Of a DNA stretch of 64,000 nucleotides, positions 25,772 to 47,527 are shown piece by piece; position 1 is the stretch's first letter, and every line of letters begins with the position of its first letter. A model generated the notes under the pieces. The model searched no databases and was not told the origin of the DNA. It was given only the letters and a program-made list of their open reading frames with translations. The stretch covers positions 1-64,000 of the forward strand of contig SVER01000018.1 in NCBI GenBank assembly GCA_015057315.1, in the 5' to 3' direction. Both the position numbers and the translations under genes were made by a program. This DNA is from Pseudobutyrivibrio ruminis. Its GTDB lineage: Bacteria; Bacillota; Clostridia; Lachnospirales; Lachnospiraceae.

Positions 25772-25878
25772 ACCCTCATCCGTCTGCTACGCAGCCACCT
25801 TCTTCTCCGCTGCCGCTCCGGTCGGCTCAGAGCAGAGGTCCACTGGACCTCTTGAGCCCCTTACATAGGGGGAAGGCT
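25772..25878 (-). repeat. Dispersed structured repeat, copy A
   Basis: 107-bp element, one of three (others at 38128 and 47427). It has three hairpin parts: a variable stem CTGC/GCAG with loop TAC (25784-25794); a central perfect palindrome AGAGGTCCA-C-TGGACCTCT (25834-25852) clasped by GGCTCA/TGAGCC; and a CCCC/GGGG stem at 25857-25872. On the minus strand it begins 6 bases after the ZIP stop codon. It lies between convergent aroA and ZIP. Confidence 0.9.
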
Positions 25879-25884
25879 ATTTTT

Positions 25885-26670
25885 TTAGCCTAAGGCTACA
25901 TCGAGTACCATCATTAGTACAAATCCTAGAGAAAAAGCAATTGTTCCAAGGTTAGAATGCTTTCCCTCTGACATTTCTGGGATCAATTCTTCTACAACTA
26001 CATACATCATGGCCCCAGCTGCGAAAGAAAGAAAATATGGCATTAAAGGAACTATAAAACCTGCCGCCAGTATAGTAATAAACGCAGCGATTGGTTCCAC
26101 TATTCCTGATAATACTCCCCACCAAAAAGTCTTTGCCTTTGGCATGCCTTCTGATAAAAGAGGCATGGATACAATTGCTCCCTCAGGGAAGTTTTGGATG
26201 GCAATACCAATAGCTAACGCCAAAGCTCCAGCAGCAGAAACACCCGAATGTCCTGAGGCGACTCCTGCAAATACAACACCAACAGCCATGCCCTCTGGAA
26301 TATTATGAAGTGTAACTGCAAGTATTAGTTTGGTGGTTCTTTTTAGTTTACTTTCTGGTCCCTCTGATTGTTTATCCATATGCATATGAGGAGTTACCAT
26401 ATCCAAGAATAGTAAAAAAACAGTTCCGATTAAAAATCCCATAGCAGCAGGAAAAAATGATAACTTGCCTAGATATTCACTGCTTTCTAAAGCTGGTGAA
26501 AGTAAGCTCCAAAAGGATGCTGCCACCATAACTCCTGCGGCAAAGCCTGTTAATATTTTTTGTAGTTTTTCAGATATATTGTCCTTTAAAATAAAAACCA
26601 TCGCAGCACCAAGACTGGTACCAATAAATGGAATTAAAATACCTAATATAATATTAATATTTAAATGCAT
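25885..26670 (-). CDS. ZIP family divalent metal transporter
   Basis: Imports Zn2+ or other divalent metals into the cytosol. About eight membrane helices are visible. The two metal-binding motifs of ZIP helices IV and V are present, HNIPEGMAVG and NFPEGAIVS, and the variable loop has a DMVTPHMHMDK histidine cluster. Length 261 aa fits the GufA/ZupT branch. The ATG has a strong GGGAGGG site that lies in a predicted leader hairpin, suggesting translational control. Confidence 0.92.
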   Translation of the reverse strand: MHLNINIILGILIPFIGTSLGAAMVFILKDNISEKLQKILTGFAAGVMVAASFWSLLSPALESSEYLGKLSFFPAAMGFLIGTVFLLFLDMVTPHMHMDKQSEGPESKLKRTTKLILAVTLHNIPEGMAVGVVFAGVASGHSGVSAAGALALAIGIAIQNFPEGAIVSMPLLSEGMPKAKTFWWGVLSGIVEPIAAFITILAAGFIVPLMPYFLSFAAGAMMYVVVEELIPEMSEGKHSNLGTIAFSLGFVLMMVLDVALG

Positions 26671-26676
26671 AAATGA

Positions 26677-26720
26677 AGCCCTCCCTTGCCTACATTAATA
26701 ATGTAACACAATTGAGGGCT
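26677..26720 (-). promoter_or_regulatory. Leader hairpin covering the ZIP ribosome binding site
   Basis: On the minus strand AGCCCTC (26714-26720) can pair with GAGGGCT (26677-26683), which contains the ribosome binding site of the ZIP gene. Between them sits a perfect 7-1-7 palindrome TACATTA-A-TAATGTA (26691-26705). A TATAAA -10-like box lies just upstream, so the leader would begin at the first arm. Confidence 0.5.
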
Positions 26721-26754
26721 ATTTTATATTAAGAAAATGTTAATGATAAATTTT

Positions 26755-27120
26755 CTATTGGAAGAATTCCATTTCCTTTTCAAGTGTATGAGCAACATCA
26801 TTTAACTTGTTAGCTCGATTTGTTAATGCTTCCATAGTATCGGCTAATTCTGTCATTGATGCTTTTGTCTCCTCTGAGCTGGCTGCATTTTCTTCAGATA
26901 TAGATGAAAGTGATGAAATTGTATCTGAAATCAAATTGCTAGCTGCCTCTGTTCTATCAACGTTAGCAACTATATCCTTTGTAAGAGTAATAGATTTATT
27001 AATATCTTCAATTAAACTATCTACCTGTTCAATAGTTCTATGAATGATATGTCTTTTCTTAGTTATAGTTTCCTGTACCTGACCCGCTTCCTCCATAGTC
27101 TTATTAGAATCAGATGAAAG
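26755..27120 (-). pseudogene. Methyl-accepting chemotaxis protein, C-terminal fragment
   Basis: Only about the last 120 residues of an MCP signalling domain remain. They form a coiled coil (ISDTISSLSSISEENAASSEETKASMTELA) followed by the usual tail to the stop codon. Reading upstream, the MCP-like frame (LSSDSNKTMEEAG) runs up to about 27120. Then it abruptly enters aroA-like sequence and meets a stop codon. There is no ribosome binding site or proper start. Receptor, HAMP and membrane parts are missing, so the gene is non-functional as it stands. Confidence 0.8.
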
Positions 27121-28077
27121 CCTTTAAATGGCGACGAATCTATTCAGAAACGTCCTATGGGACGAATCATAACGCCATTAACTCAGATGAATGCCAATAT
27201 TCGCTCTATCAAGGACAACAGCTGTGCACCTCTTGAAATTGGTGGTTCACCTTTAAAGGCTATTCACTATGATTCACCTGTAGCATCAGCCCAGGTTAAA
27301 TCTTGTGTACTTCTTGCCGGTCTTTATGCTGATGGTGTCACCTCAGTTACTGAGCCTGTAATATCTCGAAATCACACAGAGCTTATGCTTTCGGACTTTG
27401 GGGCTGATATCAAATCAGAGGGCTTAACAGCTTCAATTGTAGGTGGACCTAAACTTGTTGGTCAGCGCATTGAGGTTCCAGGAGACATCTCTTCTGCCGC
27501 CTACTTCATTGTGGCTGGATTAATCTGTCCAAATTCTGATTTACTTATTAAAAACGTAAATACGAATCCAACCAGAGCTGGTATCATCAAGGTTGCTCAG
27601 GACATGGGTGGTAATATTGAATTATTAAATGAACGAATTGTTTCAGGGGAACCTGTTGCTGATATTCATGTCACCACAAGTGAATTGAAGGGCTGCCAGG
27701 TCTCTGGAGATATTATTCCAGCCCTTATCGATGAGATTCCTGTTATTGCTGTTATGGCAGCCTGCGCTTCAGGAACAACAGTCATTAAAGATGCAGCAGA
27801 ATTAAAAGTAAAAGAAAGTGACCGCATCGCTACGGTCACTGAAAATCTTAAAGCTATGGGTTGTGATATCACTCCAACTGATGATGGAATGATTATTAAT
27901 GGTGGTAAGCCTCTTCATGGTGCTATCGTAAATACGTATTTAGATCATCGCATTGCCATGTCCTTTGCAATCGCAGGACTTGTGGCTGAGGGTGAAACCA
28001 CCTTTGATAATGAGGATTGCTGCTGTATTTCATATCCAGATTTTTTTCAAACAATACTACAAATAATTAATAAGTAA
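27121..28077 (+). pseudogene. aroA: Second aroA, 5'-truncated
   Basis: Homologous to the C-terminal three quarters of EPSP synthase. The frame is open from the residue pair matching '[13 protein letters not shown]' of the intact aroA, so about 113 N-terminal residues including PGDKSISHR and GNSGTTTRL are absent. Residues after that are mostly identical to the intact copy, but third codon positions differ widely. It is therefore not a fresh duplication. There is no ribosome binding site upstream. The break coincides with that of the MCP fragment. Confidence 0.85.
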
Positions 28078-28084
28078 AAATATT

Positions 28085-28999
28085 TTACTCTTTTTCATTG
28101 TTTAGTTTATCCAGAAGTTCCTCAGGAGTCGATGCTTCTATTTCTACCCTACCAGCTCGCTGCGCACCTGCATATGAGGCATGATATGACACAGATCCAT
28201 CCTTATGAAATTTTGCTCCAAATTGCACAGCTGCATAGTCACCCTCGTACGACTCTTCGACTTCTTTCATTTTCGTTATAACATCATCAATTTTTTCAAT
28301 TAAATCATGGGATAATTTACCCTCTGGATCAGCTAATTGTTTTACCATGTCAGCAGAAAGAAGCACATTAAATTTTGAACTAAATCTCCACATGCTCTCA
28401 CGGTAAGAACCATCGTCATTATGTCCATAAAAGTTTAGAGATGTATCGTGAGATGAGTCAGAATAGATTCTCTCAACCACCTCCATTGCAGCAATCTGTC
28501 CAGTAATAGGGTTTTTAAATGTCCCTTCAGACATGCAGCGCCTTTCAAACCAATCATTTTTTAACCGACTCTCTTCAATCGTAGCTTGTTTTGCTTCATC
28601 TGTCATACCATACCATGTAAAACGACCCGTATACGATGGATTTGTACCTTTTGCTTGTATACGCCATAGTTCTTTTATGCGATCATATGTTTCTGGTTCA
28701 TCCAACCTCAAAGTCTCCTCTAAATCAATATTTCCCAAAAAATCGTATCGTCTAGTCCTTTTTTCTTCTACAGTTTGTTCTTCCCACAGCTCACGTCTAG
28801 ACGTCACACCTGATTTCTTATACTCATCAGCCTTAATTCTTCGCTTGTTTCCGTCATCCGAGATTGAAACGATATAATCATCAGAATCATTAAGATTAGT
28901 ATTTTTTTTAAGATTTGTAATTACCTTAGAATTATCAATGGCTTGATTCTTGTCCTTATAATTCTGATTTATATTAAGATTCAGGGATACTTTATCCAT
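28085..28999 (-). CDS. Hypothetical protein, charged and soluble
   Basis: A 304-aa protein with no signal peptide or membrane helix and no family that I recognise. The N-terminal 60 residues are Asn/Lys-rich and probably disordered. The middle has aromatic motifs (RFTWYGMTDEAKQATIEESRLKNDWFERRCM); the C-terminal 100 residues contain a helical stretch (LIEKIDDVITKMKEVEESY) and a beta segment (AAVQFGAKFHKDGSVSYHASYAG). It is probably co-transcribed with the secreted protein gene at 29045, 45 bases upstream. The GAGAGAGAGG tract before the ATG supplies the ribosome binding site. Confidence 0.6.
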   Translation of the reverse strand: MDKVSLNLNINQNYKDKNQAIDNSKVITNLKKNTNLNDSDDYIVSISDDGNKRRIKADEYKKSGVTSRRELWEEQTVEEKRTRRYDFLGNIDLEETLRLDEPETYDRIKELWRIQAKGTNPSYTGRFTWYGMTDEAKQATIEESRLKNDWFERRCMSEGTFKNPITGQIAAMEVVERIYSDSSHDTSLNFYGHNDDGSYRESMWRFSSKFNVLLSADMVKQLADPEGKLSHDLIEKIDDVITKMKEVEESYEGDYAAVQFGAKFHKDGSVSYHASYAGAQRAGRVEIEASTPEELLDKLNNEKE

Positions 29000-29044
29000 A
29001 CTTTACCTCTCTCTCTAAATATCCATCAACTATAACAGAATATC

Positions 29045-30493
29045 TCACGTACAATATATAAGATAATAAAATGACCTAGTATCATGTATAATATCATTAT
29101 GGTCAAATAAGTTTCTGACATTTAGTTCAACAACATCATAATGATGTAAAGATAATGGTGCAGAATAAGATCTATAACCAATACCCGGCTTCAAATCAAT
29201 ACGTAAGGTAAAATATCCACTAGAATTGGTTCTGACTTGCCCAAAATCAGTGGCCAAAGCAGATTGTCCTATTAAATCATAAGATGTATTCAAAGCCCTA
29301 CCTTGTAGTCTAATATTGTACGCACCTGTTGTTAAATTTAAATCATCTGTGTATGTAGCACGTCCATATATTTCTATATAACTTGGATTATCATCTGCTT
29401 CTATTCTAAGCATTGTACCTTCATTGTACGTAACTGTATTAGCATGTGGTCCAGTGATAGAAATAATTTCAATATCTTCAATAGGTGACTCCGGGCCAAT
29501 TTCAATACTATATGATGTTACAGCATTATTTAAGTCAAAATTACTAATACTTTCAGAACTTCTTACTCTTAAAAAATATTCACCTGGCGACAGTGTTAAT
29601 TCTCCACCATTTCCGCTTATAACATTAAGCAACGCATAATTATCTACACCTGTAGCTAAGTTCTGATATAAATCAAACTCACATTCATTAACAGTTGATT
29701 CAGGATAATTATAAATAATCAAAAGTCTTATTTTTGAATAATTTATATCATCAATTACAGTAAACTTAAACCAATCAGCATCTATTGGCGATACAATCTT
29801 TCTAGCTACATTAAAGTTGGCGTAATTAAGTTGCGTATCAAAGCTTTCATTTACATTATCATTAATTAATCCGCTATAATCGTCATTTATATCTGATATA
29901 GCTGTAGTTAGTGTAAATGGCAAAGAATTATTGTTTGAAGAATATAACCAGACAGCTATATATATAGTTTCATCAGATGGGGCAACATATCCGATGGACT
30001 CTTCAACGGGTGCACTGGTACCAGACGATACAGGGATCAAATTACTATATTTAATAATTGAGAAATTACTGTCATATAAAACTAAATCATAATCAACTGA
30101 TGTATCATTCGGAACTGTAAGTCTAGCTTGAAAATACTGTCCTTCATCTAAATCTGAATAATATAATTTATATCCATTTTGTTGTGAAATATAGTCAGTT
30201 TCATTCCAAACAGAAATTCCATATTCAGACCTATCATTGACAGTATTCTTTAGAGAACTAATAACGTCATTATCTGAGTTTGATTCGTCTATTAAATCCC
30301 GTTCATTTATAAGCGAATGTTTAAAAAGATCCTCCTCGATTTGATAGTTATTAGGTTCTTTAATAGTACTATCAAAAGAAATATCAGAATAAGCATCCGA
30401 AACAGAAAGATATTCATTTTCAGCGTTAACTACCAACGCTGGCGTGAAAATTAAACAAATACTTAATATCAATAGCTTTTCAATTATCTTCAT
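29045..30493 (-). CDS. Secreted protein with pre-peptidase C-terminal (PPC)-like domains
   Basis: A signal peptide (cleavage near VNA-EN, residue 25) starts the protein. Two beta-sandwich stretches resemble bacterial PPC domains: about residues 110-200 (ARLTVPNDTSVDYDLVLYDSN) and about 215-335 (DADWFKFTVIDD..., LSPGEYFLRVRS). The remaining C-terminal 140 residues look like another beta sandwich (IEIYGRATYTDDL..., GYFTLRIDLKPG). No protease domain and no cell-wall anchor are seen. Likely an extracellular binding protein. It has a GGAAGGAGG site. Confidence 0.7.
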   Translation of the reverse strand: MKIIEKLLILSICLIFTPALVVNAENEYLSVSDAYSDISFDSTIKEPNNYQIEEDLFKHSLINERDLIDESNSDNDVISSLKNTVNDRSEYGISVWNETDYISQQNGYKLYYSDLDEGQYFQARLTVPNDTSVDYDLVLYDSNFSIIKYSNLIPVSSGTSAPVEESIGYVAPSDETIYIAVWLYSSNNNSLPFTLTTAISDINDDYSGLINDNVNESFDTQLNYANFNVARKIVSPIDADWFKFTVIDDINYSKIRLLIIYNYPESTVNECEFDLYQNLATGVDNYALLNVISGNGGELTLSPGEYFLRVRSSESISNFDLNNAVTSYSIEIGPESPIEDIEIISITGPHANTVTYNEGTMLRIEADDNPSYIEIYGRATYTDDLNLTTGAYNIRLQGRALNTSYDLIGQSALATDFGQVRTNSSGYFTLRIDLKPGIGYRSYSAPLSLHHYDVVELNVRNLFDHNDIIHDTRSFYYLIYCT

Positions 30494-30561
30494 TCAAATC
30501 CTCCTTCCAAAATAATTACCAAAGTCAAAACTTTATGTTACAAGCTACTTTTATCAAATAT

Positions 30562-30595
30562 TTGTGAAATATGCATGAATATATTGTGAAACATG
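30562..30595. repeat. Tandem 12-bp direct repeats upstream of the PPC gene
   Basis: TTGTGAAATATG (30562-30573) and TTGTGAAACATG (30584-30595) differ at one base and start 22 bases apart, about two helical turns. They lie 70-100 bases upstream of the start codon at 30493, a plausible place for a regulator. Confidence 0.45.
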
Positions 30596-30640
30596 AAAAA
30601 GTCCATTTATAAAAGGCACAAATAGATAACTGATTCCTTT

Positions 30641-31942
30641 TTACCAATGAGTCTTATGCTCATCTATGATTTCATTTGTCTTAAGATTAATAAGATAAAA
30701 GCCTTTTAGGCTTGCCTCCGCCTGACCTAAAGAATTTCCATTTTCATCGAGAGGCTCTGCCTCAAGTACAAGCTCTAAGCAGTCATTTCCATTCTCATCC
30801 TGCTTTAAGCCATTATCGTAGAGATTGTATTCATAGCTTTCATCCCTATAAACTGTTCCTCTAACATTTCCTTTTGCAGTATAGCTTAAATTAAGACTGG
30901 AATAATAATCCTCAATTATTCCCTGCTCCTTGAGAAACCCAGCCAAAATAATCATGTCATTCATAATATCAATATCATTGTATGGCTCTGAGGATGCGTC
31001 AATTGAATAGTCATCTTCATTGCTATAATCATAATCAGAATAGTCATCTGAGCTATAGTCATCATAATCATAGGAATCAATCAGTTCCTCATCAGCATCA
31101 CTCCAGTCAGATTGGTATCTTTCAAAACAGCTTACCAATTCACTCTTATAAATAAGGCAGCCTAAAAAAGAGAATATACAAAACAATATAAAGAATGCTT
31201 TCTTATTTTGCTTGCCTTTTTTATGTATGGCAACAATAAGAGATACACCAAACGCATATACCAATGAAACTGATATGATAGAATCCAAAAGTGACAATCC
31301 AGTCAAAAACCTTTGAAAATATCTACCACAGGAAAGGTAATTTAAATCCATACCTATGAAAAATACACCATAGGATAATAGTAAAGCAAAAATAATGATG
31401 ACAAAGGGATTAGCTGCCTTTTGCTTGGCAAGTTTACTCTCATCAAAGTCTTGTTTCTCAGAATTAATCCATTCTTTTACAAGCTCTAAATCATCATTCT
31501 TAAAAGATGCCGGAATTAAATCTACAGCCTGTCTACATTTTTCTTTATCACCCATCTTTGCATCAGCTACAGCCATTGATTTTAAGAAGAGCTTTTTATA
31601 TCCTGGCGATTTGCAAAGTACATGCCTGTGATATAAATACAGGGTGTAATCATGCACTTCCTTGGGTACAAATGATAATAGCTTCTTTTTTGTAATATTT
31701 GCATAACCTGAAAGAAATCCCACATAAAGTGTCAAAATCGATGCAAAGAATGAAATATTAAAGCTTCCATCAATATATAATCTAAGGTAATCCTTTAGAT
31801 AATAATATCCAAGAAAAAGAAGTAAGCCAAAATACAATAAAGATATTTTATGAACCAAAATAACTCTTTTGGCAATCTTCACTCCAACACTTTCTTCATC
31901 AAGTAATGTGACATCAAACTCGCCTTGTTTATAGCAATTCAT
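30641..31942 (-). CDS. Polytopic membrane protein with Asp/Tyr/Ser-rich linker
   Basis: Hypothetical protein of 433 aa. Two membrane helices near residues 30-75 precede a cytoplasmic helical region of about 100 residues with an ADAKMGDKEKCRQAVDLIP helix-turn pattern. Three to four more helices follow at about 170-275. A low-complexity stretch of Asp, Tyr and Ser (about 287-325) leads to an outside beta-rich C-terminal domain (GNVRGTVYRDESYEYNLYDN). I do not recognise the family. It starts 14 bases after the GH43 gene and is probably in its transcript. Confidence 0.6.
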   Translation of the reverse strand: MNCYKQGEFDVTLLDEESVGVKIAKRVILVHKISLLYFGLLLFLGYYYLKDYLRLYIDGSFNISFFASILTLYVGFLSGYANITKKKLLSFVPKEVHDYTLYLYHRHVLCKSPGYKKLFLKSMAVADAKMGDKEKCRQAVDLIPASFKNDDLELVKEWINSEKQDFDESKLAKQKAANPFVIIIFALLLSYGVFFIGMDLNYLSCGRYFQRFLTGLSLLDSIISVSLVYAFGVSLIVAIHKKGKQNKKAFFILFCIFSFLGCLIYKSELVSCFERYQSDWSDADEELIDSYDYDDYSSDDYSDYDYSNEDDYSIDASSEPYNDIDIMNDMIILAGFLKEQGIIEDYYSSLNLSYTAKGNVRGTVYRDESYEYNLYDNGLKQDENGNDCLELVLEAEPLDENGNSLGQAEASLKGFYLINLKTNEIIDEHKTHW

Positions 31943-34140: not shown

Positions 34141-34149
34141 AAATCAGTT

Positions 34150-36241: not shown

Positions 36242-37147
36242 TTATTCCAAAAACATTTTCTCCAAAGTAAATATATCATCATTGAAGGAATAAACTCCAA
36301 TAAATCTGTTGTCAGGTAAATAAATCCTGTATTTATGCCCATTGTTAAAGGCACTGATAGATTCTGCAAAAACCTGAGATGCAGGAATTGGACTGCCATT
36401 AACCGCATGCTTTATTGCTTCTTCCGTAGGAATAACAAAAACAGTCTCCATTCCTTCAAAGGCCTGGTCTATAGGAAGCATTATTCCATCAAGATTGCCA
36501 GCCTTAACAATGCGCTCTATCTCATCAAGAGTTCTTGCATCAGAGATATCAAACATGCTTACCCTTGTACGTACCAGAGATTTCATTGCACAGCCACAGC
36601 CAAGCTTCTGCCCAACATCATGGCAAAGGGACCTGATATATGTACCCTTGCTACAATGAATCCTAATGCTAACCTCTGGTAAGCTGATATTTAAAATATC
36701 GATGCTAAAAATGGTAACAGGTCTAGCCTTTCTTTCAACCTCTATTCCTTCTCTGGCAAGCTCGTATAACTTCTTGCCGTTGACCTTAAGGGCTGAATAC
36801 ATAGGTGGAACCTGCATGATATCCCCCACAAAGGAATTAATCGCCCCCACAATCTCTTCCTCTGTTGAATTAACTGATTTTCTATCAAGGATACGTCCGC
36901 TTAAATCATAGGTGTCTGTTTCGACTCCTAGCATCATTACACATTCGTATACCTTGTCCTTATCTGTGAGCATATCGCAAAGCTTAGTCGCCTTACCAAC
37001 ACATACAGGAAGTACCCCTGTTGCATCCGGGTCTAAGGTTCCGGTATGCCCAATCTTTTTTATTTTTAATATGCCACGAAGCCTGGCAACCACATCAAAT
37101 GAAGTATACCCGGCTTCTTTATAGACATTAATTATGCCACTATTCAT
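36242..37147 (-). CDS. truB: tRNA pseudouridine(55) synthase
   Basis: Converts U55 of tRNAs to pseudouridine. The catalytic aspartate lies in HTGTLDPDATGVLPVCVG (about D42), and YSALKVNGKKLYELAREG and CSKGTYIRSL follow. The open frame begins two codons earlier at a TTG, but the ATG at 37147 overlaps the nrnA stop (TAATG) in the style of this operon and gives the normal N-terminus NSGIINVYKEAGYTSFD. Confidence 0.95.
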   Translation of the reverse strand: MNSGIINVYKEAGYTSFDVVARLRGILKIKKIGHTGTLDPDATGVLPVCVGKATKLCDMLTDKDKVYECVMMLGVETDTYDLSGRILDRKSVNSTEEEIVGAINSFVGDIMQVPPMYSALKVNGKKLYELAREGIEVERKARPVTIFSIDILNISLPEVSIRIHCSKGTYIRSLCHDVGQKLGCGCAMKSLVRTRVSMFDISDARTLDEIERIVKAGNLDGIMLPIDQAFEGMETVFVIPTEEAIKHAVNGSPIPASQVFAESISAFNNGHKYRIYLPDNRFIGVYSFNDDIFTLEKMFLE

Positions 37148-38124
37148 TAGCAAATTCCTAACTCTATTAATTGTTTTTCTACCATAGAAACAATGTTATC
37201 AATAACATCCCATGGCTTATTAGTATTTACAGAAAAGCCTGCGGCTTTCTTATGACCGCCTCCACCGTAAACACCTGTAATCACTGTAAGGTCTACATCC
37301 CCTGTGGCTCTGGTGCTACCTTTGAAATCACCATCCTCAAGCTCATAAAGGAATACTGCTACCTCTACACCTGTAGTGTCACGAAGTTGCTGTACAATTC
37401 CTTCTAGGTGCTTACTCTGGGCACCAAACTCTGCCATATCCTCAGCTGTAATAACAGCTGCAATTACCTTACCATCAAGGTATGTTTTGCAGGAAAGCAA
37501 TGCCTTACCAAGCATACGATTTTGAATCATAGTCTTGGCAAAATATGTATCAGTACAAATCTTAGGATAATCAATACCCTTTGTCATTAAAAAGCCTGCA
37601 GCTGCCATTGTGGCCTCTGTAGTGCATGAATACTGAAATACTCCTGTATCATGAATAATTCCAAGATATAGGCACTCTGCAATATCCTTTGTGATTTTGT
37701 CCTTGCCAAACTGATTATAAATAAGCTCGCAGGTAGAACTATCATCAGGGATGATATAGCTAAACTCTGCAAAGCCTCCGTTTGTCATGTGATGGTCGAT
37801 GCATATAGTGTGCTTTGCCCTTTCAAAAAAGGCAAAGGCATCACCAAGTCTACCTCCATCGCTACAATCTAAGGCAATGTATAAGTCGAAAACTGTATCC
37901 TCAGAAACTGTATGTATATCCTCTATCTTATCTGCATTCTTTAAGAACTTAAAGATGTTAGGAATAGGATCAAGATAAACATGAACATCTGCTGAAGGAT
38001 AATATGTTTTTATGTAGTTGTATACAGCCATACATGAACCAACACAATCCCCATCAGGGCGAATATGACCACTGATGGCGATGGTGGTGGATGATTCTAT
38101 TAGTTCATTAAAGTTATTAATCAT
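37147..38124 (-). CDS. nrnA: DHH/DHHA1 oligoribonuclease/pAp phosphatase (NrnA-like)
   Basis: Degrades short RNA (nanoRNA) and 3'-phosphoadenosine 5'-phosphate. N-terminal DHH domain: SGHIRPDGDCVGSCMA and IDHHMTN; C-terminal DHHA1 domain with GGGGHKKAAGF. The reading frame continues six codons upstream to a GTG, but those codons lie in repeat copy B. The ATG at 38124 is chosen, and its GAGGG ribosome binding site is the end of that repeat. Confidence 0.92.
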   Translation of the reverse strand: MINNFNELIESSTTIAISGHIRPDGDCVGSCMAVYNYIKTYYPSADVHVYLDPIPNIFKFLKNADKIEDIHTVSEDTVFDLYIALDCSDGGRLGDAFAFFERAKHTICIDHHMTNGGFAEFSYIIPDDSSTCELIYNQFGKDKITKDIAECLYLGIIHDTGVFQYSCTTEATMAAAGFLMTKGIDYPKICTDTYFAKTMIQNRMLGKALLSCKTYLDGKVIAAVITAEDMAEFGAQSKHLEGIVQQLRDTTGVEVAVFLYELEDGDFKGSTRATGDVDLTVITGVYGGGGHKKAAGFSVNTNKPWDVIDNIVSMVEKQLIELGIC

Positions 38125-38127
38125 AAA

Positions 38128-38233
38128 ACCCTCATCAGTCACCTTCGGTGACAGCTTCTTCTCCGCTCTGCTCCGGTCGGCTCAAAGCAGAGGTCCACTG
38201 GACCTCTTTCGCCCCTTGAGAAGGGGGAAGCCT
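38128..38233 (-). repeat. Dispersed structured repeat, copy B
   Basis: 106-bp element inserted between rbfA and nrnA. The variable stem is GTCACC/GGTGAC with loop TTC (38138-38152). The central AGAGGTCCA palindrome and the CCCCTT/AAGGGG stem are conserved. On the minus strand it begins directly after the rbfA stop codon and ends 4 bases before the nrnA ATG, supplying the GAGGG ribosome binding site. Confidence 0.9.
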
Positions 38234-38605
38234 TTAGTCTTCTCTTTCGTGTAGAGGTGCGTTGACCTCGTCGATTAATTTGCTCATTTTAGCAGCGTAA
38301 GCGATTGATTGGTCTGAAACAAATGTAATTTCAGGTGTGTTGCGAAGGTTTACCCTGTGGGCAAGCTCACGACGGATAAATCCTGCTGAGCTTTTAAGGC
38401 CTTCGATAGTCTTTGCAACAGCCTCATCATCACCTAAAACTGAAATATAAGCCTTACATGTCTTAAGGTCTGGAGCAACCTCTACAGATACAACAGATGT
38501 AACTGGAGAGATGCGTGGATCCTTAACCTCAAGACGTATAATGTTAGCAAGCTCACGCATAACTTCTTCGTTTATACGTGTGTTTTTTACTGAATTCTTT
38601 CTCAT
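38234..38605 (-). CDS. rbfA: Ribosome-binding factor A
   Basis: 30S maturation factor with a KH-like fold. Conserved blocks: INEEVMRELANIIRLEVKDPRI near the N-terminus, VSVEVAPDLKTCKAYISV, and SSAGFIRRELAHRVNLRNTPEI(x)F. 123 aa, normal length. Its ATG overlaps the infB stop (TAATG). Confidence 0.95.
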   Translation of the reverse strand: MRKNSVKNTRINEEVMRELANIIRLEVKDPRISPVTSVVSVEVAPDLKTCKAYISVLGDDEAVAKTIEGLKSSAGFIRRELAHRVNLRNTPEITFVSDQSIAYAAKMSKLIDEVNAPLHERED

Positions 38606-41233: not shown

Positions 41234-41539
41234 CTACGCGTTTTGTATCTTATCTAGAATGCTTAAGGATAGATTTTCATCGCACACTACAATTGATGCC
41301 CGATATTCTTTTCCAATTGCATGACCTAAAGATTCTTTAGTTCCGTATTCTATGTAATTAATCTCATAGAAATTACAAGAATTAGAAAATGATTTCTTAG
41401 TATTATCGGATGCATCAGAAGCAACAATACAAAGGAAGCCGCTTCCATCCTTAATGGCCTGCTCACATGCAAACTCACCGGATACCAAAGCTCCTGCCTT
41501 CATCGCTATGCTTATCATGTTAAGTGCTTTATCTGTCAT
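41234..41539 (-). CDS. ylxQ: L7Ae-family ribosomal protein YlxQ
   Basis: Small RNA-binding protein of the L7Ae/L30e/kink-turn family, found between ylxR and infB in most Firmicutes. Motifs: NMISIAMKAGALVSGEFACEQAI and LCIVASDASDNTKK. The ATG at 41539 (101 aa) is chosen over an upstream in-frame start because GGAG lies just before it, within the overlapping 3' end of ylxR. Confidence 0.9.
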   Translation of the reverse strand: MTDKALNMISIAMKAGALVSGEFACEQAIKDGSGFLCIVASDASDNTKKSFSNSCNFYEINYIEYGTKESLGHAIGKEYRASIVVCDENLSLSILDKIQNA

Positions 41540-41795
41540 TCTCCAACTCCATATATAAATTATCAAAAACCTCTGTAGGAACTGCCTGTCTAAGACTGCG
41601 ATTGAAGCCCTTCTTCTTAAGGGCTAAATCTATGCAGGATTTGTTCTTGCATACATAAGCGCCTCTGCCTTGCATCTTATAGGTTAAATCAAGATGGATG
41701 CCATCTGATAATCTAACAAGCCTAAAGAGCTTATACTTTTCAAACATGCCATTACAGGCAACACATTTTCTAAGAGGTAATTGTTTTGTATCCAT
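41529..41795 (-). CDS. ylxR: YlxR/RnpM RNA-binding protein
   Basis: DUF448 protein; the B. subtilis homologue has been described as a modulator of RNase P. The signature RKCVACNGMFEKYKLFRLVR is followed by GRGAYVCKNKSCIDLALKKKGFNRSL. 88 aa. Its start overlaps the nusA stop (TAATG) and its end overlaps ylxQ by 11 bases. Confidence 0.92.
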   Translation of the reverse strand: MDTKQLPLRKCVACNGMFEKYKLFRLVRLSDGIHLDLTYKMQGRGAYVCKNKSCIDLALKKKGFNRSLRQAVPTEVFDNLYMELENDR

Positions 41796-42988
41796 TACTC
41801 TTCCTCAGATGACTCTTCAGAATCCTCATATTCTTCATCAGAATACTCCTCATCTGTATACTCGCCATCCTCATCGTAATATTCATCATCATCGTAGTAC
41901 TCGTCATCCTCGTACTCTTCCTCATAATCAAGGAAGTCACCAGCCTCACGAGCCTGAGTCTCTGACTTGATATCAATCTTGAAGCCTGTAAGACGAGCTG
42001 CAAGACGAGCATTCTGTCCTTCCTTACCAATTGCAAGTGAAAGCTGATAATCAGGAACTACTACGCGAGCGCTCTTCTCATCTGCATCTGCAACAACTGC
42101 AACAACCTTTGCAGGTGAAAGTGCATTTTCAATAAGGTAAGCAGGGTTCTCATCCCACTCAACGATATCAATCTTCTCACCACGAAGCTCGTTAACAATT
42201 GCGTTAACACGTGAACCGTTCTGACCTACGCATGCTCCAACTGGATCAACGTCCTCATCGTTAGACCAAACTGCAATCTTAGTACGGCTACCAGCCTCAC
42301 GAGAGATTGACTTAATCTCAACGATACCATCACGTACCTCTGAAACCTCTTCCTCGAAAAGCTTCTTAACAAGCTCTGGATGTGTACGAGAAACAAGAAT
42401 ACGTGGTCCCTTGTTAGATGTTTTAACCTCTACGATGTATACTTTAATACGGTCCTGTGGCTTGTAGAACTCGCCTCTAACCTGCTCGCTCTCAGAAAGG
42501 AAGCCCTCAAGCTTACCAAGGTTAACATGGATATTGTTTCCTGAGAAACGTGTAACAACACCAGTAACTACCTTGTGCTGAAGCTCATAGTACTCCTCGT
42601 AAAGAACCTTACGTTCTTCCTCGCGAATCTTCTGTGTGATTGTGTTCTTAGCTGCTGTAGCTGCGATACGGCCAAAGTCTCTAGACTTAACCTCTACGCG
42701 AACAACATCACCAATCTGATGCTTACCATTGATGTTCTGTGCCTCTGTAAGAGAAATCTCCTCAACTGGGTCCATAACCTCATCAACTACTGTCTTAGAA
42801 AGGTATACATGGTACTCACCAGTCGCCTTGTCAATTTCAACAGAAGCATTATCTGCTTTACCATAATTGTTCTTACATGCAATAAGAAGTGAATTCTCGA
42901 TTGTCTCGATTAACACGTCCATGCTGATATTTTTCTCTTTTGCAAGATCTGTAAGAGCATCCCAAAAATCATTTGTATTAGCTGCCAT
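41795..42988 (-). CDS. nusA: Transcription termination/antitermination factor NusA
   Basis: RNA polymerase-associated factor for pausing, termination and antitermination. N-terminal polymerase-binding domain (1-130), S1 domain (about 135-200) and two KH domains with DPVGACVGQNGSRVNAIVNEL and SLAIGKEGQNARLAARLTG. After residue 347 there is a striking tail of about 50 residues made almost only of Asp, Glu, Tyr and Ser. No AR repeats, as in other Gram-positives. Confidence 0.95.
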   Translation of the reverse strand: MAANTNDFWDALTDLAKEKNISMDVLIETIENSLLIACKNNYGKADNASVEIDKATGEYHVYLSKTVVDEVMDPVEEISLTEAQNINGKHQIGDVVRVEVKSRDFGRIAATAAKNTITQKIREEERKVLYEEYYELQHKVVTGVVTRFSGNNIHVNLGKLEGFLSESEQVRGEFYKPQDRIKVYIVEVKTSNKGPRILVSRTHPELVKKLFEEEVSEVRDGIVEIKSISREAGSRTKIAVWSNDEDVDPVGACVGQNGSRVNAIVNELRGEKIDIVEWDENPAYLIENALSPAKVVAVVADADEKSARVVVPDYQLSLAIGKEGQNARLAARLTGFKIDIKSETQAREAGDFLDYEEEYEDDEYYDDDEYYDEDGEYTDEEYSDEEYEDSEESSEEE

Positions 42989-43003
42989 ATTTCCTCCTAA
43001 ATA

Positions 43004-43474
43004 TTAAAAGTCTATTGATAATCTAACCTGAGCAACATCTGCTCTTGAAAAAACTTCTGTGCCATCTTCGAATTCGATGGTAATTGTATCCTTATCGAAA
43101 GCCTTAAGTGTTCCTGTGAATTCCTTAGCTCCATTAACTGGCTTGTAAGTTTTGATATCCACATCTTCGCCTATAGCCTTTTCAAAATGTTTATCTTTCT
43201 TTAATACTCTGCCAAGACCTGGTGAGCTAACTTCAAAAATGTATCCGTCGTCTCCGCCAATCTGTGGCTCTGCGTCAAGCAAATCGTTCATGCGACGACT
43301 TACGTCTACGCAATCATCAATTGTGATACCACCTTCCTTGTCGATGTAGGCTCTTAAGTAGTAATCTGCGCCTTCTTTAACGTATTCTACGTCGTAAAGC
43401 TCAAAGCCCATCTCATCAAGAATAGGAGTTATCAATTCTTCCGTACGTTTTTCGTAATCGGTGTGTTTTGACAT
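43004..43474 (-). CDS. rimP: Ribosome maturation factor RimP
   Basis: 30S assembly factor, first gene of the operon. Conserved ELITPILDEMGFELYDVEYVKEG and YIDKEGGITIDDCVDVSRRMNDLLD..., EVSSPGLGRVLKKDKHFEKAIGE. 156 aa, normal. An AAGGAGGAC site precedes the ATG. A hairpin and a promoter lie in the 130 bases upstream. Confidence 0.95.
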   Translation of the reverse strand: MSKHTDYEKRTEELITPILDEMGFELYDVEYVKEGADYYLRAYIDKEGGITIDDCVDVSRRMNDLLDAEPQIGGDDGYIFEVSSPGLGRVLKKDKHFEKAIGEDVDIKTYKPVNGAKEFTGTLKAFDKDTITIEFEDGTEVFSRADVAQVRLSIDF

Positions 43475-43518
43475 AAATGTCCTCCTTATTCAGTTGTAAA
43501 TGTTAAAAAGCATAAACA

Positions 43519-43545
43519 AAGAGAGAGCAAATATTGCTCTCTCTT
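43519..43545 (-). terminator. Hairpin in the rimP leader / purine gene terminator
   Basis: Perfect 12-bp stem (43519-43530 with 43534-43545), 3-base loop, followed on the minus strand by an interrupted T-tract TTTGTTTAT. It lies after the AICAR transformylase gene but also downstream of a promoter at 43573, so it would sit in the 5' leader of rimP-nusA. Confidence 0.75.
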
Positions 43546-43572
43546 AAGTCGCTCTCTTCAATAACAATAGAT

Positions 43573-43600
43573 ATTATATCAGAAATATTAGATTTTTCAA
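43573..43600 (-). promoter_or_regulatory. Promoter of the rimP-nusA-infB operon
   Basis: Minus strand: TTGAAA (43595-43600), 16-base spacer, TATAAT (43573-43578) with an extended -10 TG. It lies 99 bases upstream of the rimP ATG. Confidence 0.7.
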
Positions 43601-43614
43601 GGCTTTTTGCTATT

Positions 43615-44793
43615 TTAGTGATGGAATAGGCGGAGTCCAGTAAATGACATCACCATTCCGTACTTGTTGCATGTCTCGATAACGTTATCATCACGTACTG
43701 AGCCGCCTGGCTGTGCTACGTATTTAACACCAGACTTGTGGGCACGTTCGATATTATCACCGAATGGGAAGAATGCATCACTTCCAAGAGACACATCTGT
43801 CATTCTATCAAGCCATGCACGCTTTTCAGCCTTTGTGAACTCTGAAGGACGTGTTTTAAATGTCTTCTGCCATACATCATCACCGATTACATCCTCGAAC
43901 TCCTCGCCAATGTAAAGGTCGATTGCATTGTCTCTGTCTGCTCTCTTAATTCCATCGACAAAATCAAGACCTAAAACCTTTGGAGACTGTCTAAGCCACC
44001 AATTATCTGCCTTCTGTCCTGCAAGACGTGTACAGTGAATACGTGACTGCTGACCAGCACCGATACCGATTGCCTGACCGTCCTTAACATAGCAAACAGA
44101 ATTTGACTGTGTATACTTAAGAGTAATCATGGCGATTGCAAGGTCAATCTTAGCCTGCTCAGTAAGCTCTTTATTCTCTGTAACGATGTTTGCAAAGAAA
44201 TCATCATCAATAACAAGCTCATTTCTACCCTGCTCAAATGTGATACCAAATACTTCCTTACGCTCTGTCTGCTTTGGAACATAATTTGGATCAATCTTGA
44301 TTACAGCATAGTTACCGTTCTTCTTAGCCTTGAGAATCTCAAGTGCCTCTGGCTCATATCCTGGTGCAATAACACCGTCTGAAACCTCGCGCTTAATAAG
44401 CTTTGCAGTAGCTACATCACAAACATCTGAAAGTGAAATAAAATCACCAAATGAAGACATTCTATCAGCGCCTCTAGCTCTTGCATAAGCATTAGCAAGT
44501 GGAGTAAACTCCATATTCAAATCATCACACCAGTAAATCTTACGCTCTATTTCTGAAAGAGGAAGTCCCACAGCAGCACCTGCTGGGCTTACATGCTTAA
44601 ATGAAGTTGCAGCTGCAAGGCCTGTAGCTTTCTTAAGCTCTGAAACAAGCTGCCATCCATTAAATGCATCAAGAAAATTAATATAACCTGGCTTACCAGA
44701 TAATACTTCGATAGGAAGCTCGCCTTCTTCCATATAAATCCTTGAAGGCTTCTGATTAGGGTTACATCCATACTTTAATTCCAATTCTTTCAT
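43615..44793 (-). CDS. AICAR transformylase (formyltransferase half of PurH)
   Basis: Transfers a formyl group from 10-formyl-THF to AICAR, the ninth step of purine synthesis. It shows the AICARFT core: FKHVSPAGAAVG (catalytic Lys-His), SNSVCYVKDGQAIGIGAGQQSRIHCTRLAG, SDAFFPFGDNIERA and the terminal KYVAQPGGSVRDDNVIE...GLRLFHH. The N-terminal IMP cyclohydrolase (MGS-like) domain of ordinary 510-aa PurH is absent; that activity is probably the neighbouring gene at 44925. 392 aa. Confidence 0.88.
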   Translation of the reverse strand: MKELELKYGCNPNQKPSRIYMEEGELPIEVLSGKPGYINFLDAFNGWQLVSELKKATGLAAATSFKHVSPAGAAVGLPLSEIERKIYWCDDLNMEFTPLANAYARARGADRMSSFGDFISLSDVCDVATAKLIKREVSDGVIAPGYEPEALEILKAKKNGNYAVIKIDPNYVPKQTERKEVFGITFEQGRNELVIDDDFFANIVTENKELTEQAKIDLAIAMITLKYTQSNSVCYVKDGQAIGIGAGQQSRIHCTRLAGQKADNWWLRQSPKVLGLDFVDGIKRADRDNAIDLYIGEEFEDVIGDDVWQKTFKTRPSEFTKAEKRAWLDRMTDVSLGSDAFFPFGDNIERAHKSGVKYVAQPGGSVRDDNVIETCNKYGMVMSFTGLRLFHH

Positions 44794-44813
44794 CTTTTCT
44801 CTCCTTTAAATCC

Positions 44814-44896
44814 GACTGTTACGGCCACAAGCCTTAGTAATTCTCCGGTCGACTGATGTCTCCCTTGAGAATTCTAAGAGCTTGTTGCCTACAGTC
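44814..44896 (-). ncRNA. Long-stem RNA structure between the two purine genes
   Basis: An 83-base stretch folds on itself almost end to end: GACTGT/ACAGTC at the base (44814-44819 with 44891-44896), then GGC/GCC, ACAAGC/GCTTGT, CTTAG/CTAAG and AATTCTC/GAGAATT, separated by single-base bulges, with a 20-nt apical loop. It lies between the IMP cyclohydrolase stop and the transformylase ribosome binding site. It has no T-tract, so it is not an ordinary terminator. Identity unknown. Confidence 0.6.
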
Positions 44897-44924
44897 TCAT
44901 CAAATAATTTACTTTAACTATTCC

Positions 44925-45644
44925 TTACACCCTTACGTTTTTGTTGATGATGCGGGTTTCTACGGCACCGGTGGCGATGTCGATGTAGCGAACGAAAAGT
45001 GAAACCTTATTATCGTTATTAAGGTTTGTCCATATCATATCTGTGAACTCATCAATATCTCCCTTAATTTCAATAGGAGTTGGCTCACCTTCATAGGATG
45101 GAAGTGGATTACCATCGTTCATGTATGTATGAATAAATCGGCCGTATCCAGCCTTTGGATTGGAATAATCAAATGTATATCTGTTACAAGAATCGCTGTC
45201 GCCCATGTTGGACTTAAGAATTGACATCAAATAAGAAAACTCACCGTTTTCGATGTGAAGTAGACCTGAAATACGAGGTGTGAAATTAGGGCCATCTGGC
45301 TCAAATTCACGGCGGCGAAGTGCCTGCTCAAATGTCTCGCCCTTTTCCATGTACTCATAAATAGTGTCAGTCTGGTCACCATTTGTAACAATGGTATCAT
45401 TGCCAAGTACTCTAACTGGTGCATAGATAATAAGGCTTGGGTCTGTCAACTTGGAAGGGTCAAAAGCCTCTGTACGAATGCCCTTTCCTTCTTCTACAAA
45501 AACTCTGTTTCTGGAATTCTCAGAACGCCCCATAATAAAATAAGCAGAGACAGCCTTGGTTCCGTCTTCTGAACGGCCAATGACAATGCCTCTGCCTGGA
45601 TACGTGGTTTCTGATAATTCTCTAGCTAAAGATTTTACTACCAT
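44925..45644 (-). CDS. IMP cyclohydrolase, PurO-like
   Basis: Closes FAICAR to IMP, the last purine step. The start region MVVKSLARELSETTYPGRGIVIGRSEDG and the middle motifs (FIMGRSENSRNRVF, FEPDGPNFTPRISGLLHI) resemble archaeal PurO-type IMP cyclohydrolases, not the bacterial PurH N-domain. The position next to AICAR transformylase supports this. The frame extends 22 codons further, but GAGGAGGAACC before the ATG at 45644 sets the start (239 aa). A good promoter lies just upstream. Confidence 0.82.
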   Translation of the reverse strand: MVVKSLARELSETTYPGRGIVIGRSEDGTKAVSAYFIMGRSENSRNRVFVEEGKGIRTEAFDPSKLTDPSLIIYAPVRVLGNDTIVTNGDQTDTIYEYMEKGETFEQALRRREFEPDGPNFTPRISGLLHIENGEFSYLMSILKSNMGDSDSCNRYTFDYSNPKAGYGRFIHTYMNDGNPLPSYEGEPTPIEIKGDIDEFTDMIWTNLNNDNKVSLFVRYIDIATGAVETRIINKNVRV

Positions 45645-45677
45645 GGGTTCCTCCTCATTGTATGTTTTCCGCAACAA

Positions 45678-45706
45678 ATTATAACCGAACCCACGGCTTA
45701 TGTCTA
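45678..45706 (-). promoter_or_regulatory. Promoter of the IMP cyclohydrolase gene
   Basis: Minus strand: TAGACA (45701-45706), 17-base spacer, TATAAT (45678-45683), 34 bases before the ATG. Confidence 0.75.
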
Positions 45707-45754
45707 GCACAAAATATCTAGTTTCTTGGCTTGCTGGTTACCTACCAGCTATCT

Positions 45755-46531
45755 TTACGTTGTGGTGTTGAACTTGCTAATCATGTCGTCGGCGGATAGG
45801 GAGTAGTCGCCGGTGTTGGTGTAGGATTTACGGCCTGTGATGCTTGCCAATTCATTTCCTGCATAGGAATTAGCCATTGAGGATTTTGTGGCTACCTGGT
45901 AAGCATAGCTTCCGGTTCCGTTGAATAAATCCTTTACGTAGGTCATATTTGCCTTATTCTTAAGGAAATCTTCATCTACCTGTAAATGGTTATCCTTATC
46001 AATAGTAATTCCAGCCTTGCCAAGTGTTTGAGCAGATTTAGCAGAGGTTGTAACCATTGCTGCAACCTGTGTTAAAACGCCTGTATTATCGGACTTTTGA
46101 CCGCTATCAACTAATGAATTATACTTATCCGCAAAATCCTTTACAGCCTTGTAAATTGCTTCCTTGTCGTAATCCTTGTTGGTCTTGCCCTCTTCATCAG
46201 TGGTTTCCACTTCTTCCCAAATAGAATTTTTGCCCTTTGCTAACAGCTTATCCGTAGCCTTACTCAAAGCGCTGGTGTCATTTCGGATTTCGCTAAGATT
46301 TGTATCTACTTTTTTAGACTTCTTACCTGTATCTGATTTCAGATTGCCCTCATCATCATATTTTGAATAATATGCTTTCACAAGCTTTCCGTATGAACCT
46401 GATTTAATTTGGGTTAAGCTTGTAAGAGAACCTTCAAGTCCTCCAAACATGGAATTCACGCCTGATGAATTATTTCCACCAAACAATGAATAGATAGAAT
46501 TATTGCCAAAAGAATTAATAGTTAAAGACAT
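45755..46531 (-). CDS. FliD C-terminal-like protein
   Basis: A 258-aa protein with the logic of the flagellar cap protein's C-terminal half: DFADKYNSLVDSG, LGKAGITIDKDNHLQVDEDFLKNKA, then YVKDLFNGTGSYAYQVATKSSMANSY. The N-terminal D0/D1 half of FliD is missing, the first 60 residues being Gly/Ser/Asn-rich. There is no signal peptide. It may be a flagellar-secreted accessory protein or a diverged remnant; no other flagellar structural gene is in the window. The start at 46531 is set by AAGGAG. Confidence 0.6.
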   Translation of the reverse strand: MSLTINSFGNNSIYSLFGGNNSSGVNSMFGGLEGSLTSLTQIKSGSYGKLVKAYYSKYDDEGNLKSDTGKKSKKVDTNLSEIRNDTSALSKATDKLLAKGKNSIWEEVETTDEEGKTNKDYDKEAIYKAVKDFADKYNSLVDSGQKSDNTGVLTQVAAMVTTSAKSAQTLGKAGITIDKDNHLQVDEDFLKNKANMTYVKDLFNGTGSYAYQVATKSSMANSYAGNELASITGRKSYTNTGDYSLSADDMISKFNTTT

Positions 46532-46644
46532 AAACATCACTCCTTTGATTATAAAACCTGAACATCCTTGTTCATTATGTCATTACATACTTATACTTAT
46601 GATTATATTACAAAATTCCTTTGTTAATTCTGTGAACAGTTTTT

Positions 46645-47403
46645 CTACAATCTTACAGGTATGCCCTCTTTTTGCAAATACTTTTTTAAATCTAAGATTT
46701 CTAATTCCTTGTAATGAAATAGTGAAGCGGCAAGGGCTGCATCGGCGCCACCTTCTGTTAGGGCATCTTTGAAATGCTCCATGGTACCAGCACCACCTGA
46801 TGCAATAACAGGAATGGATACTGCACTTGAAACTGCTTTTGTAAGAGCTATATCAAAGCCTGCCTTTGTTCCATCACAGTCCATAGATGTAAGAAGAATT
46901 TCTCCGGCTCCAAGCTTTTCTGCCTGAAGGGCCCACTCCACAGCATCAATTCCACAATCTAATCTACCGCCATGTTTGTAGATATTGAAGCCTCCATCAG
47001 AGCGTTTTTTTGCGTCAATAGCTACTACTACACACTGACTTCCAAATTTATCTGCTGCGTCTGCTATTAATCTTGGATTGTCGATTGCGGCTGAGTTAAC
47101 AGATATTTTATCTGCACCTTCTCTGAGCAAGGCCTTAAAATCATCTACAGTACGGATTCCGCCTCCTACAGTGAATGGGATAAATACCTGCTCTGCCACA
47201 CGGCGAACCATATCTACTACAGTATTTCGTCCATCAGATGATGCAGTGATATCTAAAAATACTACCTCATCTGCGCCAGCCTTGTCGTAGGCCGCTGCTA
47301 TTTCTACAGGGTCACCTGCGTCTTTTAAATCTACGAAATTAACACCTTTTACTACTCTGCCATCTTTTACGTCCAGGCAGGGAATTATTCGTTTTGTTAA
47401 CAT
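46645..47403 (-). CDS. hisF: Imidazole glycerol phosphate synthase, cyclase subunit
   Basis: TIM-barrel cyclase that forms imidazole glycerol phosphate and AICAR. Catalytic aspartates D11 ([13 protein letters not shown]) and about D130 (VVAIDAKK) are present, with GGGIRT and ASGGAG phosphate loops. 252 aa. It follows hisH, separated by repeat copy C. AICAR released here feeds the transformylase gene 2 kb downstream. Confidence 0.96.
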
Positions 47404-47426
47404 GATTTTCTCCTATAGTATTGAGT

Positions 47427-47527
47427 ACCCTCATCCGGCTCTTCGAGCCACCTTCTTCTCCGCTGCCGCTCCGGTCGGCTCAGAGCAGAGGTCCACTGGA
47501 CCTCTTGAGCCCCAGAGGGGGAAGGCT
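47427..47527 (-). repeat. Dispersed structured repeat, copy C
   Basis: 101-bp element between hisH and hisF. The variable stem is GGCTC/GAGCC with loop TTC (47437-47449). The central AGAGGTCCA palindrome is identical to copy A, and the terminal CCCC/GGGG stem has a 3-base loop. On the minus strand its first bases form part of the hisH TAG stop codon. Confidence 0.9.

Follow-up and report, generated by a model that had tools for sequence, protein, structure and literature searches.

Two nested families of small hairpin-forming repeats, R1 and R2, in Pseudobutyrivibrio ruminis and other Lachnospiraceae

The first 64,000 nucleotides (nt) of contig SVER01000018.1 of Pseudobutyrivibrio ruminis (assembly GCA_015057315.1), hereafter the window, hold three copies of a structured repeat made of two elements: an outer repeat of 47 nt with two hairpins, R1, and a module of about 54 bp, R2, nested inside the second hairpin of R1. 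R1 is a new family of the repetitive extragenic palindrome (REP) class, and R2 a new nested palindromic element. Both are dispersed, their paired positions covary, their ranges among bacteria differ, and R2 is present, absent or replaced by another type at orthologous sites of related species. We consider it probable that R1 and R2 are small mobile DNAs of two families, one nested in the other, which are non-autonomous and propagated in trans by way of a folded single strand.

Three window copies, each an R1 with an R2 inside

A first-pass annotation, made from the letters of the window, had described a three-copy repeat in one orientation, in which a short hairpin changes its sequence from copy to copy and still pairs around a 3-base loop, next to a constant central palindrome and a CCCC/GGGG stem. 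The repeat was recovered by blastn with copy 1 as the query, which matched the two other copies with E values of 1.6e-25 and 1.5e-37, and the positions first given were right to 1 nt. The hairpin has exactly the announced form in each copy, and the palindrome AGAGGTCCA-C-TGGACCTCT and the CCCC/GGGG stem are present in all three. The elements are listed below.

25773..25877 (+), copy 1: R1 with C-type ends, carrying an R2 of type A
25782..25796 (+), hairpin 1 of copy 1: core CTGC-TAC-GCAG, with a non-complementary lower T/C pair
25804..25858 (+), nested R2 of copy 1, type A: lower stem, 4-nt bulge, upper stem, 3-nt loop
38129..38232 (+), copy 2: R1 with A-type ends, carrying an R2 of type A whose lower stem is the TTCG variant
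38138..38152 (+), hairpin 1 of copy 2: GTCACC-TTC-GGTGAC
38160..38213 (+), nested R2 of copy 2, type A
47428..47526 (+), copy 3: R1 with C-type ends, carrying an R2 of type A
47437..47449 (+), hairpin 1 of copy 3: GGCTC-TTC-GAGCC
47457..47511 (+), nested R2 of copy 3, type A

When folded as single-stranded DNA, copies 1, 2 and 3 gave z values of -2.6, -3.2 and -2.6 relative to dinucleotide shuffles. In these folds the arms CCTTC/GAAGG or GCTTC/GAAGC pair across the R2 insert.

R1 is a high-copy repeat with covarying hairpins

A search of the genome of origin (94.5% complete, 97 contigs) with copy 1 hit 48 places, some of them long, others reduced to a 5′ and a 3′ piece with about 50 nt between them, which corresponds to a short form of R1 without the centre. 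This form reads CCCTCATC(C/A)GTC, the variable hairpin, CA(C/G)CTTC, the C/G arms and GAAG(G/C)C. A model built on 13 short copies returned 141 rows at E≤1 in the same genome, about 115 of them full length at E≤1e-4 (some of these being the 5′ part of long copies); the copy number is a lower bound, since 150 of 1372 first-look candidates were scored. Copy 3 of the window had a score of 0.0024 with this model.

R1 ends are of two types, a C type (CATCC with ACCTTC and GAAGGC) and an A type (CATCA with AGCTTC and GAAGCC). The linkage between the parts of an end type was kept in 62 of 65 elements of the genome of origin, in 103 of 117 elements from other genomes, and in all 41 exact pattern matches found in 36 viral-contig stretches of 55–74% GC. 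A hammerhead-like reading of CTGATGAG, on the other strand of the head, was dropped, as it applies to A-type ends only and Rfam is silent on it.

The compensatory changes that had been noticed between the three window copies extend well beyond them. Over 93 distinct rows from several genomes, fitted to the R1 model, two-sided changes are seen at 11 of 15 pairs (in 158 cells, compared to a mean of 51 after shuffling and at most 9 with slid partners), and 96.7% of the cells pair. In the training set of 13 rows alone, 5 of 15 pairs covary, in 15 cells.

For the large genome samples, the 14 to 30 best first-look candidates per genome were scored, so that counts are lower bounds and absences hold at that sensitivity. 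R1 was strong in 4 of 200 genomes of the family (17 at E≤0.01) and in 11 of 398 genomes of a phylum-wide sample, 7 of these belonging to one other family. It is also carried by one Pleomorphomonas plasmid. R1 of both end types is found in the viral contigs (L353 to L388), whose high GC content indicates that R1 crosses phyla; together with the plasmid, these matches rule out a family confined to Clostridia.

One R1 of the genome of origin (L015, 1367–1491, - strand) holds a different, longer palindromic insert in the loop of hairpin 1, so that a second site of R1 may be invaded by another element.

R2 is a separate family with a wider range

R2 consists of TCTNCG, a mini hairpin, CGGTC, and then a hairpin with a 4-nt bulge; 78 of 125 distinct cores are 54 nt long. 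The genome of origin has two types, A (that of the window) and B, which occupy the same place inside hairpin 2 of R1. A model trained on 23 copies, all lying outside R1, found 25 copies in this genome, 21 within R1 and 4 elsewhere. The central palindromic part had struck the first-pass annotation as unfamiliar, and this impression was borne out: R2 is far more widespread in the bacterial family than R1, and is found in other contexts as well.

Matches to the R2 model (E≤1e-4) were obtained in 89 of the 200 family genomes and in 5 of the 398 phylum-sample genomes, 4 of these from the same family. Set against the 4 family genomes in which R1 was strong, this means that two families of different range meet in the genus of the window. 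Among the matches listed for a pattern covering types A and B in named genomes (at least 111 stretches) were Pseudobutyrivibrio, Butyrivibrio, Agathobacter, other Lachnospiraceae and Acutalibacter, and many of these copies lie outside R1. Pattern matches in GC-rich actinobacteria and other non-Clostridia were regarded as fortuitous and do not enter the R2 counts. An exact pattern search, the only one made there, gave no R2 match in viral contigs, and carriage of R2 by phages was set aside on this basis.

R2 covaries too, a point beyond the initial description. Its training set has 8 of 16 pairs covarying in 37 cells (slid partners, at most 2). In a set of 74 distinct rows, 13 of 16 pairs covary in 206 cells, compared to 46 in shuffled rows and at most 24 with slid partners, and in a set of 65 distinct rows 12 of 16 do so in 197 cells, compared to 57 and at most 11. 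The proportion of paired cells is 97.9% in the former set and 97.2% in the latter, with one subset of broken lower stems (ending in TTCGCC) in which two pairs each fail in 6 to 9 rows. Of 98 distinct copies, 78 have AAGC, AAAC, GAGC or GAAC as their bulge, and the CGGTC flanking the bulge hairpin is kept; the first set of loci was itself chosen by a pattern fixing CGGTCG.

The same site can be filled, empty or filled with another type

Orthologous sites were found for 27 R1 sites of the genome of origin among the loci of other species, and there the relatives carry R2, lack it, or hold another type of it. Six comparisons of a filled with an empty R1, all with identical 24-nt heads, set loci L018, L030, L017, L043, L048 and L049 of the genome of origin against L143, L128, L157, L117, L177 and L161. 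Window copy 3, which has an R2 of type A, corresponds in Pseudobutyrivibrio sp. OR37 (L173) to a type B R2 in an otherwise near-identical R1, the flanks being 90 and 94% identical. At another orthologous site the whole of hairpin 1 differs while the remainder is conserved (L028 and L205). In 11 of 40 comparisons no R1 of the same orientation was present at the site (9 against empty and 2 against filled copies of the genome of origin).

No obvious target duplication was seen in the filled and empty pairs compared by eye, where C runs blur the ends. Movement of R2 itself, and not copy-to-copy conversion throughout, probably accounts for its presence or absence at these sites. Conversion among the scattered R1 copies is likely to contribute as well.

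R2 lies next to tRNA genes, in other repeats and in protein genes

For the analysis of flanks, 192 R2 copies were reduced to 92 (13 in R1, 79 elsewhere) by dropping those with flanks under 40 nt, lengths under 48 nt or near-identical flanks. Nineteen of the 79 copies outside R1 have a tRNA gene no more than 150 bp away, compared to a random mean of 4.75 and a maximum of 11 in 500. For 12 of 19 rows examined (one of two L253 rows being excluded and L301 added by hand), 11 to 18 nt of the 3′ end of the tRNA itself are repeated to the right of R2, which thus occupies the T-loop of an incomplete second tRNA end, the tRNA gene staying whole. Such second ends were seen at L126, L236, L255, L273, L277, L301, L317, L352 and others, mostly 60–100 bp downstream of the intact gene, and their left flanks often have an inverted T-arm too.

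Other repeats host R2 in single genomes; for instance, ten fetched copies of genome G191 share host sequence on at least one side. The hosts of R2 in genome G052 (TGTCATTCTGAGCG) presumably resemble the CGTC-tagged class of REPs. A composite repeat, made of a GCGAG.TGCGC hairpin, R2 and then GCCGGAGGCT, is common to two genera (L278 to L287 in G191, L302 to L305 in G081). R2 copies can also be tandem or closely spaced (L254, L257, L253/L298, L264, L271, L301); at L254 and L257 two different types stand head to tail, the second beginning where the first lacks its last bases.

R2 is also met within protein genes. At L268, it lies in frame in a predicted C_GCAxxG protein, of which a 69% identical homologue (L342) lacks 17 residues at exactly that position. 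Stop-free, putatively coding frames also run through R2 at L259 (WYL regulator), L250 (aminotransferase) and L274 (no Pfam match); the Pfam spans of the L259 and L250 proteins are stretched by about 15 residues. More generally, 125 distinct R2 cores have a mean of 4.34 of 6 frames open, compared to 3.81 when shuffled (maximum of 50 shuffles, 4.01).

R1 sits behind stop codons, often in head-to-head pairs

Placement was determined by simple calling of open reading frames (ORFs), leaving out R1 copies less than 300 nt from the end of a locus or without a called neighbour. Among 62 R1 placed in the genome of origin, 56 lie outside called ORFs, 18 between convergent and 38 between co-directional genes, and 6 lie inside an ORF. 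The 68 placed from other genomes gave 12, 47 and 9, respectively. None was found between divergent genes, among the 56 and 59 elements lying outside ORFs with both neighbours called. Where genes are co-directional, the tail of R1 is on the stop side in 30 of 38 cases (p = 0.0005) in the genome of origin and in 39 of 47 (p = 6e-6) elsewhere; the distance from tail to stop is 8 nt or less in 38 of 48 and 38 of 51 elements, respectively. The neighbours of the three window copies, whose tails are 7, 1 and -1 nt from the stop end of the ZupT-like gene, rbfA and hisH, are given below.

Copy 1: aroA (24491-25768, +), stop end 5 nt away; ZupT/ZIP-like transporter gene (25885-26670, -), stop end 7 nt away
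Copy 2: rbfA (38234-38605, -), stop end 1 nt from the R1 tail; NrnA-like gene (37147-38142, -), annotated start overlapping R1
Copy 3: hisH (47526-48131, -), stop codon overlapping the R1 tail by 1 nt; hisF (46645-47403, -)

Near the full aroA, the window has a second aroA-like gene (27157-28077) of 306 amino acids, which matches the aroA model from position 109.

R1 copies often pair. In the genome of origin 10 pairs are head-to-head and 3 tail-to-tail, and in the other loci 11 are head-to-head, 4 tail-to-tail and 1 tandem. The spacing of the head-to-head pairs is 15–19 nt in 8 of 10 and 8 of 11 cases, respectively, and in 18 of the 21 an A-type end is combined with a C-type end.

Mispairs of R2 show no strand bias

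The two large R2 sets contain 13 G.T and 9 A.C mispairs in 2179 cells, an A.C being a G.U on the other strand. In tRNA acceptor stems from the same loci, used as a control, 12 G.U and 0 A.C were counted in 231 cells (33 of 35 tRNAs, with the end offset of each chosen to maximise G.U, A.C or Watson-Crick pairs). R2 is thus Watson-Crick on both strands alike, which fits DNA, or arm-copying repair, better than RNA, and we infer that single-stranded DNA is the form that is read. The window has no Rfam match that reaches the gathering score. With the cut-off at E≤1, Rfam matches in L125, L126, L131, L118, L001 and L028 were just tRNAs, a CRISPR repeat and IS009, all away from R1 and R2.

The first-pass annotation had left the choice between an RNA element and a folded-DNA mobile repeat akin to REPs or to miniature inverted-repeat transposable elements (MITEs). 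The results favour the folded-DNA, REP-like branch, given the many dispersed copies, the head-to-head pairs, the site right behind stop codons and the lack of strand bias among R2 mispairs. As to RNA, a side effect in the 3′ untranslated region (UTR) is possible. The covariance searches of the genome of origin and of related genomes brought up many further copies outside the window, and these copies do pair.

Search for a mobilising enzyme, and other points against mobility

Several results weigh against the proposal that R1 and R2 are mobile DNA moved in trans as a folded strand. No match to Y1_Tnp (PF01797), the domain of the REP-associated tyrosine transposases (RAYTs), was found in the genome of origin, at its 94.5% completeness. 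The domain is present in 115 of the 200 family genomes, and no association with R2 was seen over these (51/38/64/47, odds 0.99, p = 1). R1 was absent from 23 loci that hold Y1 genes or pieces of such genes, and one of these loci, L318, had R2. The Y1 loci of ten genomes likewise had no R1, and R2 at L318 only; none of 22 Y1 loci fetched from other genomes had R1. On these grounds a RAYT origin was rejected. At L318 (2362–3006, genome G122), one R2 separates a Y1 gene fragment from a TnpB-like frame, which contains another R2 at the contig end; one case in 23 loci is a lead only. An all-against-all comparison of ORFs around R2 brought no transposase among the 25 recurrent neighbour clusters listed, which consisted of host genes, chance actinobacterial loci and frames through the repeats themselves.

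The structural data have exceptions as well. One of the lower pairs in hairpin 1, at columns 11/109, is broken in 22 of 92 cells, and the R1 tail hairpin (hairpin 2) has 29 U.G cells on the + strand, at three of its inner pairs. The latter may come from long copies misaligned to the short model, by which they are poorly served. Complementarity between the two flanks of R2 is modest, with a mean best helix of 4.61 compared to 4.17 in permuted flanks (0 of 200 permutations as high) and 14 of 79 copies reaching 6, so that entry of R2 into palindromes is a tendency and not a rule. The filled and empty sites are examples and not rates, because the loci of relatives were fetched for carrying R2. Gene conversion is a further way in which R2 could pass from one dispersed R1 copy to another.

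Comparison with known systems

REPs are described as small, dispersed, high-copy palindromes, often in head-to-head pairs, placed behind genes between convergent or co-directional ORFs, and non-autonomous (Di Nocera and co-workers, PMC3733652, in its available text). R1 shares these features with REPs and with their composite forms (REPINs, paired REPs, and bacterial interspersed mosaic elements, BIMEs), including the head-to-head pairs with mixed partners. It differs from GTAG REPs in having two hairpins and the head CCCTCATC(C/A), without an unpaired GTAG/GGAG tag, and from REPs mobilised by RAYTs, since the genome of origin has no RAYT or Y1 gene and no R1 was found at the 23 Y1 loci.

CGTC-tagged REPs, for which no dedicated transposase is reported, occur mostly as head-to-head dimers, have intragenic units and include elements of Rickettsia; the available text of the same report makes no mention of Firmicutes or Clostridia (PMC3733652). 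The hallmark of this superfamily is an unpaired CGTC tag, followed by an 8–9 bp stem which starts with A-T pairs and closes on a 4–5 nt loop, and neither R1 nor R2 shows it. C-type R1 does hold the letters CGTC, but the GTC belongs to the stem, as hairpin 1 includes the pairs G10-C24, T11-A23 and C12-G22 and has a 3-nt loop; A-type R1 has AGTC. R2 has no CGTC tag, and its hairpin is longer, with a 4-nt bulge and a 3-nt loop.

Rickettsia palindromic elements (RPEs) are reported both in frame inside protein genes and outside them (PMC10969869; PMC3733652; both in their available text). R2, a palindromic element too, shares the in-frame insertion with RPEs, as the 17-residue gap between the predicted L268 and L342 products shows. 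By description, it differs in size (about 54 bp compared to about 150 bp) and phylum, and in that most copies are found within other repeats, close to tRNAs or in intergenic DNA, with one in-frame case verified by a homologue. R2 behaves like RPEs but fits the full definition of no known family. With MITEs, R1 and R2 have in common that they are short, non-autonomous and dispersed; they appear to differ in that single copies have no terminal inverted repeat, no target duplication was seen by eye, and no parent transposon was found. Some insertion sequences, such as IS1397 and ISPpu9 (the latter in PMC8450116), target REP palindromes. Like R2, such elements insert precisely inside a palindromic repeat; R2 has no gene. 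A literature search, outside of which subscription papers mostly lay, found no description of R1 or R2.

Discussion

A working scheme for two mobile families would be the following. R1 would be a REP-class repeat, often arranged head-to-head as in REPINs or BIMEs, whose tail adjoins the stop codon of a gene next to it. R2 would enter DNA precisely and without visible target duplication, often into other palindromes, among them the R1 tail hairpin, copied tRNA T-arms and further repeats, and sometimes into genes in frame. A putative enzyme acting in trans would read the folded single DNA strand of both elements, so that Watson-Crick complementarity of the arms would be kept and their sequence would be free. 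A bolder version concerns R2 alone, and we advance it tentatively, at less than even chances: R2 may be a minimal mobile DNA of about 54 bp which moves by itself, in trans and in the form of a folded single strand, enters palindromes and genes precisely and often in frame, and can be swapped like a cassette within a resident repeat. Its arms may be free to vary provided that they pair, and a putative enzyme would then recognise it by the shape rather than the sequence of its stem.

The covariation could instead reflect RNA folding, R1 and R2 being selected as a 3′-UTR structure that stabilises the mRNA or brakes translation termination. The strict site behind stop codons, its one preferred orientation and the lack of any divergent case speak for this, as does a slight sense-strand lean of hairpin 1 (6 A.C and 2 G.T on the + strand). 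REPs of E. coli located at most 15 nt from a stop codon act on translation (PMC12306157, in its available text), which suggests that R1 may have a side effect on the upstream gene. An RNA-level role as the cause of the structure nevertheless appears improbable to us, because R2 is almost without wobble and without strand bias when compared to tRNAs, because the Rfam searches of the window and the six loci gave no match on the element, and because R2 also adjoins tRNAs and sits inside genes and other repeats. Even less probable, and in our opinion very unlikely, is that R1 is an intrinsic terminator cassette (a C/G-rich tail hairpin plus T-rich DNA) spread by conversion, with R2 as a passenger. 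Apparent T runs do follow many tails, and 18 of 56 R1 of the genome of origin lie between convergent genes, but the hairpin-plus-T side opposes transcription in 30 of the 38 co-directional cases there, including window copies 2 and 3.

The alternative that comes closest invokes mutation and recombination alone: template switching in quasi-palindromes would copy one arm onto the other, gene conversion would swap hairpins and inserts, and no selection on structure would be needed. It accounts well for arms that are almost purely Watson-Crick, with 5 cells of one-sided change compared to 206 of two-sided change in the 74-row R2 set, and also for the block replacement of hairpin 1 between L028 and L205 and for the exchange of type A and type B R2 at window copy 3. 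It leaves unexplained how R2 reached unrelated tRNA, coding and repeat contexts without shared flanks, and it does not predict the bulge consensus or the conserved CGGTC. We regard it as unlikely, though a more serious contender than the RNA and terminator explanations, and we prefer two nested mobile families.

Covariation alone is no proof of RNA, as these repeats warn, and low wobble combined with the lack of strand bias provides a simple way to tell hairpins of DNA from those of RNA. Much is known of REP-like repeats in Proteobacteria; the system found here, large and in two layers, belongs to Lachnospiraceae of the rumen and gut, and in several species the same sites provide natural pairs of a before and an after state. 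Two questions become testable with this material: what moves REP-class repeats that have no transposase, and whether tiny palindromes add peptides to working proteins.

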